The translations under genes and the position numbers were made by a program. This document shows, one piece after another, positions 18,496-26,333 of a stretch of DNA of 64,000 nucleotides (its first letter is position 1; each line of letters starts with the position of its first letter). The stretch is from Pyrinomonadaceae bacterium (lineage in GTDB: Bacteria > Acidobacteriota > Blastocatellia > Pyrinomonadales > Pyrinomonadaceae): contig JACMJZ010000021.1 in assembly GCA_014380365.1 (NCBI GenBank), positions 1 through 64,000 on the forward strand, given 5' to 3'. The notes under the pieces were generated by a model. That model had not been told where the DNA came from, made no database searches, and was given only the letters and a program-made list of their open reading frames with translations.

Positions 18496-21378
18496 ATGAA
18501 GGTTTTCCTTTCCTCTACCGCACTTGACCTGGTTACCCATCGTAAGCTGGCCGACGACACGATTCTGCGGCTCTCGCAAGAAGCCGTGGTAATGGAGCGG
18601 TTTGGCCCGCTACCTGGCGAGCCTGTGGCCGAATGCGAACGCAAGGCCCGCGAGAGCGACGTGGTGGTGTGCATTGTGGCACACCGGTACGGGTTCGTGC
18701 CCGAGAAGGGTAAGGGCAGCATCACGCAACGCGAAGTGGAGGCGGCGAAAAGGGCTGGGAAGGACGTGCTTGTGTGGATCGTCGCGGACGACTACCCATG
18801 GACTGAAAAGAAGGAGCAGGACCTTCTCGCCGACCCGACCGTTATGGCTGACCAGGCACGCGTGGCGGAAGTCCTGGAGGGACTAGCTGCACTCGGTGCC
18901 TTCAAAACGTCGTTGCGCAAGAATTTCACCTGCGAGACATTCACGACGCCAGACGACCTCGGCCGGAAGATCGCGATAGCGCTGCGAACTCAGTCTTCCA
19001 AGCAAACACCGCACGCAGCGGCGTCAGTACCCAAACAAGGCGAGGTCCGCGTCGTTCATGCACTCCAGCCCGCGCCTCACTTCCATGGACGCGACGCGCT
19101 GGTGACGGAGTTGACAACCTGGGTCGCGGACCTGGCATCGCCGGACCGAGTGTGGTCGTTGGTGGCAGCGGGCGGCACGGGAAAGACAGCGGTCGTGGAA
19201 CGCGTGGTTCGAGACATGAAGCCCGGCGAGGCGAACGTGCTCGTCTGGTCGTTCTACGAAAAACCCGACGCCGATGCCTTTCTGCGTGAATGCAACCAGC
19301 TCTTCCTGGGCGAGGACGAAGGGCCGGCAGGCGGACGTCTGGAGCGCCTCGAGCGTGGTCTGCGCGACGGCCGTCCTCACCTCGTCGTGCTCGACGGGAT
19401 GGAGCGAGTTCAGGAAGATGCCGGCGCCGGGCGCGTGCGCGGCGAGCTTTCCGACCAAACGCTCAAGCTGCTCCTCCGCGCGCTCGCCGCTGGTCTCGGT
19501 CGCGCCCGCGCGCTCGTAACGTCTCGCTTTCCGCTCGTCGATCTCCAGGACTGGACCCGCAACGGCTACAGGGAAACACGCCTTGACGATCTCACCCCGG
19601 AAGCAGCGGTGGCCGTGCTGCGCGGGTGGGACGTTGTCGGTGTCGAGGCGGCGCTCCGCGCGGCGGCGGAGCAAGTCGGGCACCATGCGCTCTCGGTGGC
19701 CGTGATCGGTTCCTACCTCCGCTCGTTCGCAAACGGGCGCATTGAAGAAGTTGCAAACTTTGACCTCGACGCGGTGACCGGCGACGACCCGAAGGCGGCA
19801 AAGCTCGCGCGCGTGCTCGCGTCATATGCTGAACGATTACCGCAGGAGGAACGCGAGTTGCTCGCGCGCCTGTCGGTGTTTCCGCGCGGCGTAACGCTGG
19901 AACTGCTGGGTACTCTAATCGACGCAGGAGGTGATGTGGCCGGCCTGCTCGTGAAGGCAAAGCCGCGCCTCGTGAAGCTGCTGGTTAGCCTGAAGTCGCG
20001 CGGGTTAGTGTTCGAGTACCGCAGCGACGCGAGCGTGACCTGGACAGCGCACCCATTCCTGCGTGAGAGGTTTCGCGATCTGCTCGGCATCCCGGCTGAG
20101 CAAGTATTCGACGTCGTGGCTCAGTCGCTGGGGTCTGGTCTGGAGGCGCGGCCAGAGACGAAGCCGAGCGACCCGAGCGTGCTTGACCGCTACGAGCGTC
20201 TGATCGAAGCAACGCGGCTCGCAGGCCGAGAGCAGGAGGCGTTCGACCTGTATTGGTTTGGAATGGGGGAGTACAAAAACCTCGGGTGGGTGCTTGGGGA
20301 GTACCAGCGAGGCTATCGGATTTTGGCGGCGTTCAGCGCAACGGGAAAGCCGGAGGATTTCGGGCCGACGATAGTTCCGCGACTGCGATCGATTCTCGCG
20401 AACGACCTCAGTCTCTTCGCACACCGGCTTGGACGCTTGGGGGAGGCGTGGGCGATCTGTCAGGTGGCGGCCGGATGGAGTAAGACGCTCGGCGAACCCT
20501 CCGAGATGGTGCTAGGGCTCCAAAACTTGAGCGCGATGGCGCTTGCAAGAGGCCATCTTACCGAGTCGCACAAACTGGCTGATGCGTCGATCACCGAAGC
20601 AGAGGAGGCGCTCGATACGCTGGAACCATGGCAGCGCGCGGAGACTTTAGGGCTGCGCGGGTTTTCTCTCCATGCGCTTGGCGATATCCCTGCCGCGCGA
20701 GCAGACTTTGACTCCGCAACGGAACTCGAAGGCGCTCCCCTCATGTCGTTCCGAGGTTCTCACCACGCGCGCCACCTCGTAGACCTTGGCGAGTTGGCCG
20801 CCGCCCGCGTCATCTGCGATCACGGTTTGAAAATCGCGCGCGAAAAAAACTGGAACCAGGATCTACCCCGCTTCCAAGCTCTCCTAGCCCGGATCGACCT
20901 TGCTGAGGGCAACGACCCCACCTCCCACATCGACGATATCCGCAGCTGGACTTCGCATACGGGTGAGATGCAGTACATCATCGAAGCCCATCTGCTTACG
21001 GCGCGTCATCTCCTCGCCTCAGGCGATCCGCAGGCGGCACTCGGAGAGGCAGAGGCCGGTCTGCTGCACGCGGTCTCGTGCGGGGACGCGCTGTTGCGCA
21101 TCGAGCTGCTGGTTGCGATGGCGCGAATCCGGCTGGCCTGGCCGGATCCACCAAAAGCAATTCAGGCGGCGCGCGAGGCGCTCGATCTCGCTTCGCATCC
21201 AGACTGTCGGTACGCGTGGGGCGAGGCGGACGCCGCGCAGGTGTGGGGCGAGGCCTACTTCGCCAACCACGAACCTACGCTTGCGAAGCGCGCCTTCACC
21301 CGCGCACTCGAAGTGCGTAAGCGCATCGAACATCCCGGCATTGCGGAAACACAAAAGTGGCTCGACCGCGCCGGCTGA
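18496..21378 (+). CDS. DUF4062-STAND NTPase-TPR protein (NLR-like, possible immune sensor)
   Basis: A 960-residue cytosolic protein in three parts. Residues 1-85 are a DUF4062 domain (MKVFLSSTALDL, VVVCIVAHRYGF, SITQREVEAAKRAGK). Residues 200-560 are a STAND-type NTPase with Walker A GGTGKT (about 226-231), Walker B HLVVLDGMERV (about 294-304) and a TSRFP sensor, followed by winged-helix-like text (ELLARLSVFPRGVTLELL). Residues 580-960 are helical TPR-like repeats (AWAICQVAAGWSKTLGE, RAETLGLRGFSLHALGD, KRAFTRALEVRKRIEHPG). The layout, effector or adaptor domain plus NTPase plus repeat sensor, is that of bacterial NLR-like antiphage proteins, but no phage test exists for this one. By eye it is richer in GC than its neighbours, suggesting acquisition. 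GGGAG precedes the ATG. It is single, with no obvious partner gene. Confidence 0.85.
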   Translation: MKVFLSSTALDLVTHRKLADDTILRLSQEAVVMERFGPLPGEPVAECERKARESDVVVCIVAHRYGFVPEKGKGSITQREVEAAKRAGKDVLVWIVADDYPWTEKKEQDLLADPTVMADQARVAEVLEGLAALGAFKTSLRKNFTCETFTTPDDLGRKIAIALRTQSSKQTPHAAASVPKQGEVRVVHALQPAPHFHGRDALVTELTTWVADLASPDRVWSLVAAGGTGKTAVVERVVRDMKPGEANVLVWSFYEKPDADAFLRECNQLFLGEDEGPAGGRLERLERGLRDGRPHLVVLDGMERVQEDAGAGRVRGELSDQTLKLLLRALAAGLGRARALVTSRFPLVDLQDWTRNGYRETRLDDLTPEAAVAVLRGWDVVGVEAALRAAAEQVGHHALSVAVIGSYLRSFANGRIEEVANFDLDAVTGDDPKAAKLARVLASYAERLPQEERELLARLSVFPRGVTLELLGTLIDAGGDVAGLLVKAKPRLVKLLVSLKSRGLVFEYRSDASVTWTAHPFLRERFRDLLGIPAEQVFDVVAQSLGSGLEARPETKPSDPSVLDRYERLIEATRLAGREQEAFDLYWFGMGEYKNLGWVLGEYQRGYRILAAFSATGKPEDFGPTIVPRLRSILANDLSLFAHRLGRLGEAWAICQVAAGWSKTLGEPSEMVLGLQNLSAMALARGHLTESHKLADASITEAEEALDTLEPWQRAETLGLRGFSLHALGDIPAARADFDSATELEGAPLMSFRGSHHARHLVDLGELAAARVICDHGLKIAREKNWNQDLPRFQALLARIDLAEGNDPTSHIDDIRSWTSHTGEMQYIIEAHLLTARHLLASGDPQAALGEAEAGLLHAVSCGDALLRIELLVAMARIRLAWPDPPKAIQAAREALDLASHPDCRYAWGEADAAQVWGEAYFANHEPTLAKRAFTRALEVRKRIEHPGIAETQKWLDRAG

Positions 21379-23131: not shown

Positions 23132-23578
23132 ATGAATAAAGCGTTGATTTGCGGTTTGACCGCAGCTTTACTCGTCACTGGCGCGTGCTCATCCGCGAGC
23201 ACACCGCCTGCGGCGAAAACCACGGCTACACCACCTCCAGCAACCGCGGCCGCGACACAGCCCACTGCGCCTGCCGCCGATACTGCGGGAGCTCAGGACT
23301 TCACTCTCGTTAACGCCACCGGAGTAGAGATCGACAAGGTCTACATCGCCCCGCATAGCTCCGACGACTGGGAAGAAGACATTCTGGGACAAGACACCCT
23401 GCCCGATGGCCAGAAAGTTGACATCAAGTTCAACCGCGCCGAGAAAGCAGCATTGTGGGATTTGAGGGTTGAGGACAGCAAAGAAAACAGTATCGAATGG
23501 GAAAATCTTAACCTGCTCGAGATTTCCAAGCTGACTCTCCATTACAAAGACGGCAAAGCAACAGCCGTCGCTGAATAG
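23132..23578 (+). CDS. Exported lipoprotein, WEEDILGxDTL family (paralogue 1)
   Basis: A 148-residue protein with a lipoprotein signal peptide (cleavage before Cys19 in LVTGAC), then a 35-residue Ala/Thr/Pro linker and a compact beta-rich domain of about 95 residues. That domain has the motif FTLVNATGVEIDKVYIAP then WEEDILGQDTLPDG. The next gene encodes a clear paralogue without the lipobox. The domain is not recognised as a characterised family; similar small domains occur in many Acidobacteria and Proteobacteria as hypothetical proteins. AAGGA precedes the start. Probably anchored in the periplasmic face of a membrane. Confidence 0.85.
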   Translation: MNKALICGLTAALLVTGACSSASTPPAAKTTATPPPATAAATQPTAPAADTAGAQDFTLVNATGVEIDKVYIAPHSSDDWEEDILGQDTLPDGQKVDIKFNRAEKAALWDLRVEDSKENSIEWENLNLLEISKLTLHYKDGKATAVAE

Positions 23579-23710
23579 ATTGAGACTCCAAGTCTAATCG
23601 ATAAATTCCCGCAGAACTCCAGCCAAACTCCTCCTCAGGAAGCAGGGCTGAGCCTGCGGGAATTTAATCCGAAACACCAAACTTCATCAAGTAAAGGATT
23701 TTTGAGGAAT

Positions 23711-24139
23711 ATGAACACTCTACCATCGAACACGAATCGAAAGTTGAAAGCGCTGGTTGCAATCTTTGTGCTCTCAGTGATGCTTGTTCCCGCTGCGCTC
23801 GCGCAAGGGACGCAAAATTTTGTTTCGGCCGCAAGCCAGAACAAGCAGGACTTCGAACTGCATAATGAAACGGGCCAGGAAATTAAGGAAGTCTACGTCT
23901 CTCCGACGGGCGTCGATGAGTGGGAAGAAGACATTCTTGGCACAGACACACTGGCGGCGGGGGACAGTGTTAACATCTCGTTCACCAGACGGCAGGAAGA
24001 CATGTGGGACATAAAAGTAGTTTTCAGAAGCGGCAAGAGCAGCGTCTGGACGAAGCTGAATCTCTCACAGATCACTGACGTCACCATCTCCTTCAAAAAC
24101 GGCAAGCCCTGGGCAACCTGGAAAAACGGCGACGAGTAA
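23711..24139 (+). CDS. Exported protein, WEEDILGxDTL family (paralogue 2)
   Basis: A 142-residue protein with an ordinary signal peptide ending near ALAQG, followed by the same domain as its upstream neighbour (FELHNETGQEIKEVYVSP, then WEEDILGTDTLAAG and SFKNGKPWATW). The two were made by tandem duplication, one retained as a lipoprotein and one secreted or periplasmic. The start is uncertain: ATG 23711 has GAGGA very close, while an in-frame TTG at 23702 lies directly behind AAAGGA. Role unknown. Confidence 0.82.
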   Translation: MNTLPSNTNRKLKALVAIFVLSVMLVPAALAQGTQNFVSAASQNKQDFELHNETGQEIKEVYVSPTGVDEWEEDILGTDTLAAGDSVNISFTRRQEDMWDIKVVFRSGKSSVWTKLNLSQITDVTISFKNGKPWATWKNGDE

Positions 24140-24303: not shown

Positions 24304-24813
24304 TTACCGAAACTCACTATCATCTGCTGATGGTCCGTAAATGGCTGGAACTTTCGCACCCATCAAACGCAGATAGACGGTCATCTGGCCGCGGTGGTGC
24401 GCCCAATGATTAATCGTGTCCTGAATGAACTCGTAGCGCGGCGCCTCCATTACCACCTGGCCGCGGGCCAATAATTTCCATGGCGTTAACAAATGTTCGT
24501 CGGTGGTCTTCTCAAGCGCGGACCGCGCGCCAGCCGCAGACTTATCAAGCGCCTCAATCAGCGCTGCGCTGGTGTCCAGACTTTTCTGTTCCATGTTTGA
24601 ACCTTCCGCCGGCGCCACATCGAGTTCCCCCTGAGTGACCTGCATCGCTAGCCACGAGGGAATGGTGGCTACCATGTTCGCCAGGTAGCCGAAGATCATC
24701 GACTTCTCGTGCGGCTTCCAGTCGTACCTGCCTTCGGGCACCTCCGCCAAAGCACGGCGCGAACGCTCCACCTCGCGGTCTAACTCTGCCAGTAGGAACT
24801 CCGTCAGTTTCAT
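24304..24813 (-). CDS. DinB family (DUF664-type) putative metal-dependent enzyme
   Basis: A 169-residue four-helix DinB-like protein. The C-terminal metal-binding HHRGQ motif is present (NHWAHHRGQMTVYLRLMG, about residues 134-151) and the N-terminal segment DREVERSRRALAEVPEGRYDWKPHEKSM matches the family. The first-helix His that usually completes the metal triad, expected in the segment after KSMIFGYL, appears to be replaced (ANMVATIPSW). Many DinB proteins are thiol S-transferases using bacillithiol or similar; others have no known activity. AAGGAG precedes the start. Confidence 0.88.
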   Translation of the reverse strand: MKLTEFLLAELDREVERSRRALAEVPEGRYDWKPHEKSMIFGYLANMVATIPSWLAMQVTQGELDVAPAEGSNMEQKSLDTSAALIEALDKSAAGARSALEKTTDEHLLTPWKLLARGQVVMEAPRYEFIQDTINHWAHHRGQMTVYLRLMGAKVPAIYGPSADDSEFR

Positions 24814-24867: not shown

Positions 24868-25674
24868 TCAGGGCAGCGTCCTCGCCACTTCAAGAACCTG
24901 TTCCGGCCGTGCGCGCACCCAATAGTTTTCCGTCAGGTTTACCCAACGCACGACACCGGACGAATCGACCAAAAACTCCGCCGGCCTGGCCACGTCCTGT
25001 CCCTCGATTCCCGCGCCTGCGTGCAACAGGTCGTAGCGGCGAATCGCGTCGGCTTTCGGATCGGAAAGAATCGGAAATGTGTAACCGGCTTTCTGAGCAA
25101 GATCGCGCGATTCCTCCGGACTGTCTACACTGATCGCAATCGGACGAATCCCCACCTCTTCGAGTTTGGCCAAACTAGTTTGTATGCTCCGCAACTCGGA
25201 GTTGCAGGATGGTCACCAGTAACCTCTGTAGAAAATCAGCAACACACCCTTTGGAGTCCGCGCTTTCTCGTCGCGCGAGGCGAGTAGTCCGGCGAGTGAG
25301 ACGGGTTTGCCATTCGTGTCGGCGAGAGTGAAGTCAGGCGCCTTCTGGCCCACCTGTGGGTGCCCCGCAGAGGCGGGCAATTGCCTCGCCATTATGAAAA
25401 CGACGAAGACAAAGGATCCGAAAATCGCGACGCTGAGTGTGGTCAGCACCGCGCCGGCGATCTTCGATCGCATCGGCTTGGGCCGATCCGGCCGGAAGGC
25501 GCGCCGAAGTCCAAACAGCAGGAGCGGCGCAGCTCCGGCGAATAGCAGAAGGTTGGCCCAGGGGAAGTCGCGCGTGACGGGGAACCAGACAAACACAAAG
25601 AAGTAGCTGAGAAACGCTATCAAGCTAAGTAGAAAACCTGCCCACAGCGGCCAGTTGAGTTTTGGGATCTTCAT
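24868..25674 (-). CDS. Membrane-anchored redoxin (AhpC/TSA-like), probable selenoprotein with UxxC motif
   Basis: Read through one in-frame TGA (25213-25215), this is a 268-residue protein. Three hydrophobic helices (about residues 8-31, 37-57 and 72-97) anchor a redoxin domain that starts VGQKAPDFTLADTNGKPVSL. The active-site segment reads LIFYRGYW, TGA, PSCNSELRSIQ; relatives have FYRGxWCPxC here, so the TGA takes the place of the redox-active Cys (position 154) while Cys157 is kept. Homology continues in frame: ISVDSPEESRDLA, FPILSDPKADAIRRY, RPAEFLVDSSGVVRW. A small hairpin follows the TGA (25187-25201). AGGAGG precedes the ATG. I infer selenocysteine insertion. The alternative is a nonsense mutation, less likely because the stop falls on the one catalytic codon and both halves are intact. 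Expected role: peroxide or thiol reduction at the membrane. Confidence 0.85.
25187..25201 (-). promoter_or_regulatory. Candidate bacterial SECIS hairpin
   Basis: Directly downstream of the in-frame TGA the minus-strand mRNA can form CTCCG-AGTTG-CGGAG, a 5-bp perfect stem with a 5-base loop. The loop begins 16 bases after the TGA and has G at its second position; both fit the published general bSECIS pattern. An overlapping alternative stem, GCAAC with GTTGC, uses the same region. The lower stem is weak, so this is a candidate only. Confidence 0.5.
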
Positions 25675-25737
25675 TGAAACTCCTCCTCGACAATTCTACT
25701 AACACTCGTCGGCTTCTTCCTGGGATAGAGTCAAGAA

Positions 25738-25844: not shown

Positions 25845-26249
25845 TTAACTCCGAAGCGGAATGAGTGTGCGCAGCCGCTCAATGCGCAGGTAAAGTCCAA
25901 GCCAGAGCAAGGCCCCGAAAAAAGCAGGGAAGAGAACTGGAAAAGCGCCTTCGCCCATGCGCACATGAGTGGCCACTGCGCCGCCCAGATAGCCTGTTAA
26001 CAGAATCGCGCCAAGGACGGCGGTGCGCGGGATCATGTAGAGGATAGTGCTGACCAGCAAGACGATCCCCATGCCAATGATAGTGCTTTCAGGATATCCA
26101 AGCTTGACGGTTCCTTCCACGACCACTGCGGGCTTGAAGAATTTCATTACCGCGTCCATTAGGAGAAATAGCGCTGGTAGAGCGCTGATGATGCGTCCGG
26201 CCCAAATCATCTTTTTTGAAACGGGCGCAGATTGACTATCCGTCGTCAT
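25845..26249 (-). CDS. DoxX-like membrane protein
   Basis: A 134-residue protein with four hydrophobic helices beginning KKMIWAGRIISALPALFLLMDAVMKFF, the typical DoxX-like opening, followed by GYPESTIIGMGIVLLVSTILYMIPRTAVLGAILLTGYLGGAVATHVR, here given in short form as the family's conserved centre. The start at 26249 is chosen because GGAGGA lies seven bases upstream; five codons further upstream is another ATG inside that Shine-Dalgarno region. These proteins often accompany DGPF/YCII and ECF sigma genes, as here. Function unknown. Confidence 0.88.
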   Translation of the reverse strand: MTTDSQSAPVSKKMIWAGRIISALPALFLLMDAVMKFFKPAVVVEGTVKLGYPESTIIGMGIVLLVSTILYMIPRTAVLGAILLTGYLGGAVATHVRMGEGAFPVLFPAFFGALLWLGLYLRIERLRTLIPLRS

Positions 26250-26333
26250 GAGTGGTTCCTCCATTTGGGCGATTGGCGCTTACTGTATTCGAGTTGCCCC
26301 TTTCCAATACACGGCGGAAGGTCTTTCGTCAAA

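Follow-up and report, generated by a model that had tools for sequence, protein, structure and literature searches.

A three-helix membrane redoxin from Pyrinomonadaceae predicted to be a UxxC selenoprotein

Is a TGA within the redox motif of a redoxin gene a lesion in that gene, or a codon for selenocysteine? The question is raised by one gene in a 64,000-nucleotide stretch of DNA from a Pyrinomonadaceae bacterium, here called the window. A first-pass annotation, made from the letters alone, had described one in-frame TGA separating a membrane anchor and the start of a redoxin domain from the rest of that domain, and had proposed a selenoprotein; its coordinates hold, and the strand, which it did not give, is the minus strand. 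Read from 25674 to 24868 with TGA as selenocysteine (U), the frame has 268 residues, the single internal TGA that had been described, and a terminal TGA stop, with U154 (codon 25215..25213) in the context FYRGYWUPSCNSELR (Table 1). We conclude that the internal UGA is almost certainly read as selenocysteine. The best overall explanation, which we regard as very probable, is that the gene encodes one full-length selenoprotein, a membrane-anchored redox protein of the cell envelope.

Table 1. Features of the selenoprotein locus and its immediate neighbors (positions in the window)
Feature	Coordinates	Strand	Basis or remark
Selenoprotein gene (almost certain), 268 aa; three-helix membrane anchor and peroxiredoxin-fold (AhpC/TSA) domain	24868..25674	-	stop TGA 24868-24870
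In-frame TGA, almost certainly selenocysteine 154, UPSC motif	25213..25215	-	TGA conserved in orthologues
SECIS-type hairpin CTCCG-AGTTG-CGGAG	25187..25201	-	pairing, double changes, constrained codons 158-162
N-terminal three-helix region, residues 1-99; conserved TRDFPWAN after first helix	25378..25674	-	
Redoxin domain, residues 105-268, peroxiredoxin fold; predicted periplasmic side	24871..25362	-	PF00578, fold matches, loop charges
Shine-Dalgarno AGGAGG, 7 nt upstream of ATG	25682..25687	-	read directly from sequence
DoxX_2-family protein	25845..26264	-	next gene upstream, same strand
DinB-family protein	24304..24813	-	next gene downstream, same strand

Conservation of the codon carries much of the argument. 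Across 119 genomes of the host's family, its own included, all 16 full-length orthologues (window included; 61-100% identity) have exactly one internal stop, a TGA, at the same codon; one further orthologue, that of G113, is divided by a contig end. Unrelated stops elsewhere in the genes of close relatives had been named beforehand as evidence against the selenoprotein reading; the 15 further full-length family orthologues, 61-78% identical to the window protein, all have TGA at this very position. A scan of GTDB species genomes used the patterns TRDFPW[AV]N and L[VI]FYRGYW, which stop short of the selenocysteine codon and so did not select for TGA; the best 80 of 286 relatives were kept, and TGA was found in 80/80 (L086 and L094 included). 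Most of these loci are from Acidobacteriota and 23 have Verrucomicrobiota-type titles; Deltaproteobacteria, Betaproteobacteria, and Binataceae each head one record, and some of these may be misbinned. Surveys of the class (162 genomes) and phylum (396 genomes) gave one TGA in 21/21 matches and in 25/25 matches at E<=1e-30, respectively, the latter scoring at most six candidates per genome, such that weak Cys relatives may be missed; 20 of the 25 phylum matches extend into the helix region. The family and scan sets overlap, as do those of the class and phylum. An automatic codon count, which includes loci lacking the helices as well as duplicates, returned TGA in 102/102 (79 of L055-L134 and 23 of L150-L174); of the three loci outside this count, L094 and L162 were read separately as TGA, and the L170 match has one TGA according to the phylum survey.

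The sequence following the TGA is constrained, and the pattern is that of a short hairpin whose first pair lies 11 nt, and whose loop lies 16 nt, from the UGA. The alignment comprised 82 gap-free rows (76 distinct) over 36 nt from the TGA; exclusions were made beforehand and covered 13 divergent loci (L151-L154, L165-L169, L171-L174), L094, L162, L170, and rows identical over 48 nt. Columns 15-19 pair with columns 25-29 (CTCCG AGTTR CGGAG) in 380/380 cells of the 76 distinct rows; slid versions of the hairpin are 27-70% paired. Double-change cells number 15 versus 3.9 in shuffles, and the covariation score is 0.207 versus 0.140, with 0/500 shuffles as high for either measure. Two pairs vary (UA/UG/CG and CG/UA/UG types) and the other three of the five are invariant, thus uninformative on covariation; by the counts of pairs changed on both sides and of further pair types, 280/500 shuffles equal the hairpin. 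Leu CTC replaces Ser TCC in eight rows, of which seven have CGA GG for CGG AG and one (L132) has CGG GG; the matching 3' changes indicate that pairing outlasts the change of amino acid. Codon choice is most strongly restricted here: codons 158-160 are Asn AAC (78/78), Ser TCC (76/76), and Glu GAG (84/84), and Arg is CGG in 92% under the hairpin. Divergence from background codon use averages 1.05 bits at seven sites within codons 155-164 versus 0.15 bits at 66 others, where serine codons 182 and 204, away from the hairpin, also depart (1.42 and 1.08 bits).

The published bacterial SECIS model allows a loop of 3-9 nt with a G in its first two positions, a stem of 4-16 bp, and a spacing of 16-37 nt, with a limiting energy of -7.5 kcal/mol or lower (as described in PMC13188914). 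The hairpin agrees in geometry (AGTTG loop of 5 nt beginning A-G-U, 5-bp stem, spacing of 16 nt), and folds that contain it have energies of -9.2 (L073), -9.6 (L119), and -6.7 kcal/mol (L124, the hairpin alone), the last falling short of the limiting energy. On these comparative grounds, the conserved hairpin is the predicted bacterial SECIS element of the gene. The Rfam family RF00031 (SECIS_1) had no match in the host genome nor in 14 control genomes and hence is uninformative either way. The lowest-energy 40-nt fold of the window (-9.8) is a different, palindromic hairpin; considered as a SECIS, it was rejected, with 89.0% pairing versus 89.3% in shuffles and no covariation. Inspection by eye finds the CTCCG/CGGAG hairpin in L151, left out of the alignment, and finds none in L152-L154 and L165-L169, a second clade in which the SECIS may have moved or been replaced. 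A separate observation by eye is an apparent other hairpin further downstream, CTGCAA-GGT-TTGCAG, in L152-L154 and L165-L168, slightly different in L169.

The host genome (4.98 Mb in 34 contigs; nearest named relatives, Pyrinomonadaceae MAGs) encodes the machinery for which a search had been proposed, with each component over its curated cut-off. A tRNA-Sec lies on contig C8 (69.7 bits; called SeC by ARAGORN) with SelB (330 bits) about 28 kb away; SelD (357 bits, also on C8) and SelA (534 bits, on contig C5) are not among the open reading frames of the tRNA-Sec/SelB region and are encoded elsewhere in the genome. Among the 14 control genomes, hits over cut-off were found for tRNA-Sec in five, SelB in two, SelA in one, and SelD in two. 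With tRNA-Sec, SelA, SelB, and SelD all encoded and a short conserved hairpin downstream of it, UGA-154 should be decodable by the ordinary bacterial selenocysteine route. The host SelD (L051, G000:C8:186468-187397) is itself a predicted selenoprotein, with an in-frame TGA in the motif CSGUAAK. Further carrier genomes from the scan have tRNA-Sec in 11 of 12 cases, the Binataceae record (G516) showing none at E<=1e-9. SelA exceeds its curated cut-off in 249/396 sampled genomes of the host's phylum, where selenocysteine use, judged from gene content, looks very common. It is found in 25/25 carriers from the phylum survey, compared with those 249/396, apparently from the same sample (hypergeometric P 5.7e-6, with relatedness ignored).

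Other readings of the TGA must be weighed against this record. A pseudogene, or a sequencing or assembly error, would make the TGA a chance nonsense change from TGC or TGT, and translation under table 11 does yield two broken open reading frames, as the first-pass annotation had expected of automatic annotation: 153 aa (25213-25674) and 108 aa starting at TTG (24868-25194). Such an accident is extremely improbable, given that one stop stands at one codon across many independent assemblies, in the 15 other family genomes and in every locus kept from the scan, that both halves (held from the start to be intact) are conserved in orthologues, and that a constrained hairpin follows the TGA. The same two open reading frames could instead be taken as separate proteins, a membrane piece and a redoxin piece, for which the in-frame TTG at 25194 offers a start. 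We give this almost no credence: the second piece would miss the first strands of the modeled fold; no Shine-Dalgarno or other ribosome site is visible before the TTG when the sequence is read by eye, in line with the original remark that the second half has none of its own; and the TTG sits inside the loop of the conserved hairpin and is replaced by TTA, TTT, or GTG in many relatives. A changed genetic code, in which TGA encodes some other amino acid, would likewise place a TGA in frame inside a conserved gene. The window gene and orthologues L022, L030, and L032 themselves end in TGA, however, while tRNA-Sec, SelA, and SelB are present and a SECIS-type hairpin follows the internal TGA, leaving reassignment a negligible chance. 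Selenocysteine thus remains the reading to which the evidence points, and the original proposal of a UxxC selenoprotein fused to three helices is borne out by the conserved TGA, the machinery, and the hairpin together.

Where cysteine replaces selenocysteine in this group of proteins is a question of its own. An alignment had been proposed to see whether the position is Cys in close relatives and TGA in others; TGA is kept in close relatives, and Cys was seen in more distant paralogues and in no three-helix homologue among the surveyed loci (best 80 of 286 in the scan). Family paralogues without the three helices (L036-L048) are 36-45% identical to the window protein, carry FYRGYWUPYC-type motifs, and by eye look secreted. 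Their codon at the selenocysteine position could be read at 11 of the 13 loci (L045 and L047 being outside the count) and is TGA in seven (L037, L039-L042, L044, L046) and TGC or TGT in four (L036, L038, L043, L048). L073 comes from a Udaeobacter genome (G509), in whose phylum 19/288 genomes match at E<=1e-25, with at most nine candidates scored per genome, so that weak Cys relatives may be overlooked; a single TGA is present in each of the three matches at 1e-115 or better, and the remaining matches listed, at 2e-37 or weaker, have no internal TGA. TGC was found in 5/5 read of L178-L184 (L178 and L179 outside the count).

A midpoint-rooted tree was built from 53 selected redoxin domains, among them 31 of the loci with helices and that of the window. 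It sets the five TGC matches of this phylum apart (98/97) and nests four Pyrinomonadaceae Cys rows within a soluble clade of mainly Sec members (92/95), a hint of Sec-to-Cys reversals inside that clade; three-helix rows need three changes on the tree, which is compatible with a single origin as well as with several. From the Cys codons of paralogues and distant matches, Cys/Sec exchange is evidently a property of the wider redoxin family. With TGA in 80/80 kept of 286, the three-helix family offers an uncluttered case for studying the need for selenium.

The architecture of the protein suggests where it may work. Model helices span residues 8-26, 39-59, and 67-97 (mean pLDDT 94.7), with 19-residue hydropathy peaks of 2.2, 1.6, and 2.5, and would hold the protein in the cytoplasmic membrane with its N-terminus inside and the redoxin domain outside. 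Loop charges (median net +2 for the N-terminus, +1 for the first loop, and +3 for the second) modestly favor this N-in topology and a periplasmic redoxin domain. Cysteines occur in the helix region in 18/52 rows, and anywhere besides positions 154 and 157 in 28/52. Because none of these extra cysteines is invariant, the helices probably serve for anchoring, or for docking by way of the conserved TRDFPW loop, rather than as a thiol relay.

The domain itself scores 100.1 bits with PF00578 (AhpC/TSA; cut-off 26) and 62.5 bits with PF08534. Superposition of the model finds Bcp4 (3hjp; Z 24.5, 156 residues, rmsd 1.8, 26% identity) and AhpE (4x0x; Z 24.0), and profile matches to PDB sequences are stronger for Bcp (3e-28) than for ResA/TlpA-type proteins (3e-18). 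Positions 154 and 157 of the UxxC motif, which stands where other members have TxxU or TxxC, are invariant in 52/52 rows. Aligned with 2cx3, neither the peroxiredoxin catalytic motif PxxxT/SxxC nor the active-site Arg is kept: R150 stands for P, U154 for T/S, C157 at the peroxidatic Cys, and Pro231 for Arg. The early comparison with redoxins was thus sound as to a UxxC redoxin, and its likening of the motif to that of thiol peroxidases was not, the motif being of the Prx-like UxxC type.

What chemistry might such a domain perform? A role as a periplasmic thiol or peroxide reductase is a reasonable, moderately favored prediction from motif and topology. The peroxiredoxin-fold domain would be a seleno-thiol reductase of the cell envelope: the Sec154 selenolate would attack an oxidized substrate (disulfide or hydroperoxide), Cys157 would resolve the adduct as a Se-S bond, and a thiol donor would reduce that bond again. 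Such a reductase appears likelier than a true peroxidase because UxxC is the thioredoxin-type motif and here replaces PxxxT/SxxC; whether the main substrate is a disulfide rather than a peroxide is close to an even call. A true peroxidase, protecting the envelope from peroxides, is a less probable yet serious alternative: the closest solved sequences and folds are the peroxiredoxins Bcp4, AhpE, and PrxQ, and C157 occupies the place of the peroxidatic Cys. Against it, the motif is RGxWUxxC, and Pro231 stands in 51/51 readable rows of 52 where the active-site Arg of peroxiredoxins would align.

Genes for DUF1801, YCII, and sigma-factor proteins lie near the window gene. A DoxX relative lies upstream on the same strand in 5/80 kept scan loci, three within 60 nt, and the DoxX surroundings of the window are not widely shared. 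An OPT transporter relative lies beside the selenoprotein gene at L073, L079, L088, and other loci. It is found upstream on the same strand at 15/23 Verrucomicrobiota-titled loci, at a distance of 45 nt or less in 14 and of 219 nt in L113; two more of the 23 and L104 (titled Deltaproteobacteria) have it upstream but on the opposite strand, and L088 (Acidobacteria) has an OPT gene downstream on the same strand, with Pfam checks of OPT identity made on L073 and L088. The occurrence of the same gene pair in three arrangements suggests a functional link between the transporter and the selenoprotein. A much broader picture can be drawn, which we consider speculative and rather unlikely as a whole: an envelope-facing, membrane-bound redoxin family with obligatory selenium, tolerating no Cys form, kept in several phyla and working with an OPT transporter in Verrucomicrobiota or with a DoxX-type membrane protein in some Pyrinomonadaceae. 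The pair would form a distinct envelope system, and its substrates at the membrane surface would be disulfides or peroxides carried by peptides or by glutathione-like thiols. Carriers of the three-helix selenoprotein are, we presume, largely soil bacteria.

Elsewhere in the window, the adjacent plus-strand open reading frames at 23132-23578 and 23702-24139 are similar in sequence (FTLVNATGVEIDKVYIAP and FELHNETGQEIKEVYVSP) and probably represent tandem paralogues. A 960-aa open reading frame (18496-21378, plus strand) has an N-terminus that we take to resemble DUF4062, with an NTPase and repeats after it, and is possibly a STAND-type protein.

In this phylum, many such genes are probably split by routine annotation, as the frequency of SelA in the sampled genomes would imply. 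Published notice of selenoproteins in the group is brief: one paper mentions in passing that some Acidobacteria have them (PMC1794560), and deep-Sep reported three known and no new selenoprotein genes for one Acidobacteriota genome (PMC12013277). Acidobacteria are not named in the portions covered of a 2026 review (PMC13188914) or a 2016 survey (PMC5029168), and neither "acidobacteri" nor "transmembrane" occurs in the searched text of the review. According to that review, aerobic bacteria rarely keep selenoproteins (PMC13188914); in the 2016 survey, both aerobes and anaerobes use selenocysteine (PMC5029168). Nearly all selenoproteins are described as having Cys counterparts (PMC12013277, PMC13188914), with GrdA among the few exceptions, and some families are named for which Cys homologues are scarce or absent (PMC1794560). 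A literature search covering titles, the beginnings of abstracts, and parts of texts found no description of a three-helix form without Cys versions; a term search of PMC5330540 likewise gave no match.

The window protein can be compared with several known systems. It shares the fold of the AhpE/Bcp/PrxQ peroxiredoxins, which have PxxxT/SxxC and Arg; the window protein keeps neither and has instead selenocysteine and a three-helix anchor. ResA and TlpA are likewise membrane-anchored extracytoplasmic redoxins, with a CxxC-type motif and, in ResA, one helix, whereas the window protein has three helices and selenocysteine and scores 48.8 bits with the ResA model (NF002854/PRK03147), below the cut-off of 170. 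The SelL-related redox proteins (NF040769), for which the motif is UxxU, are also distinct: the window protein lacks UxxU and reaches 42.5 bits against a cut-off of 120.

The nearest likeness is to the Prx-like selenoproteins, listed since 2005 (PMC1088965), in which a thioredoxin-like UxxC replaces TxxU in an AhpC/TSA domain (PMC1088965; PMC13188914 Table 1). Two UxxC entries of this kind appear among the 119 families and subfamilies inventoried in 2026, "Prx-like thiol:disulfide oxidoreductase" and "Redoxin family protein" (PMC13188914). The former (PF00578, UxxC/UxxU) has the AhpC/TSA domain and UxxC in common with the window protein; a membrane-helix fusion does not figure in the descriptions given in PMC1088965 and PMC13188914, whereas the window protein has three helices, and fusions of Prx-like proteins to unknown domains are listed in a supplement of PMC2398784. 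Prx-like 1 is credited with 2,740 Cys homologues versus 225 Sec sequences (PMC2398784), whereas no three-helix Cys member was seen among the loci surveyed here. The latter entry (PF08534, UxxC, HEU0032618.1; PMC13188914 Table 1) shares UxxC and a redoxin domain with the window protein. The named representatives, WP_010940744.1 and HEU0032618.1, were likened to the window protein by description rather than sequence, and HEU0032618.1, known here in that way, may belong to the three-helix family. The early claim of a new selenoprotein therefore stands in part: the Prx-like UxxC kind was already known, and what looks new, with HEU0032618.1 set apart by description only, is its fusion to three membrane helices together with the absence of a Cys form among the homologues seen.
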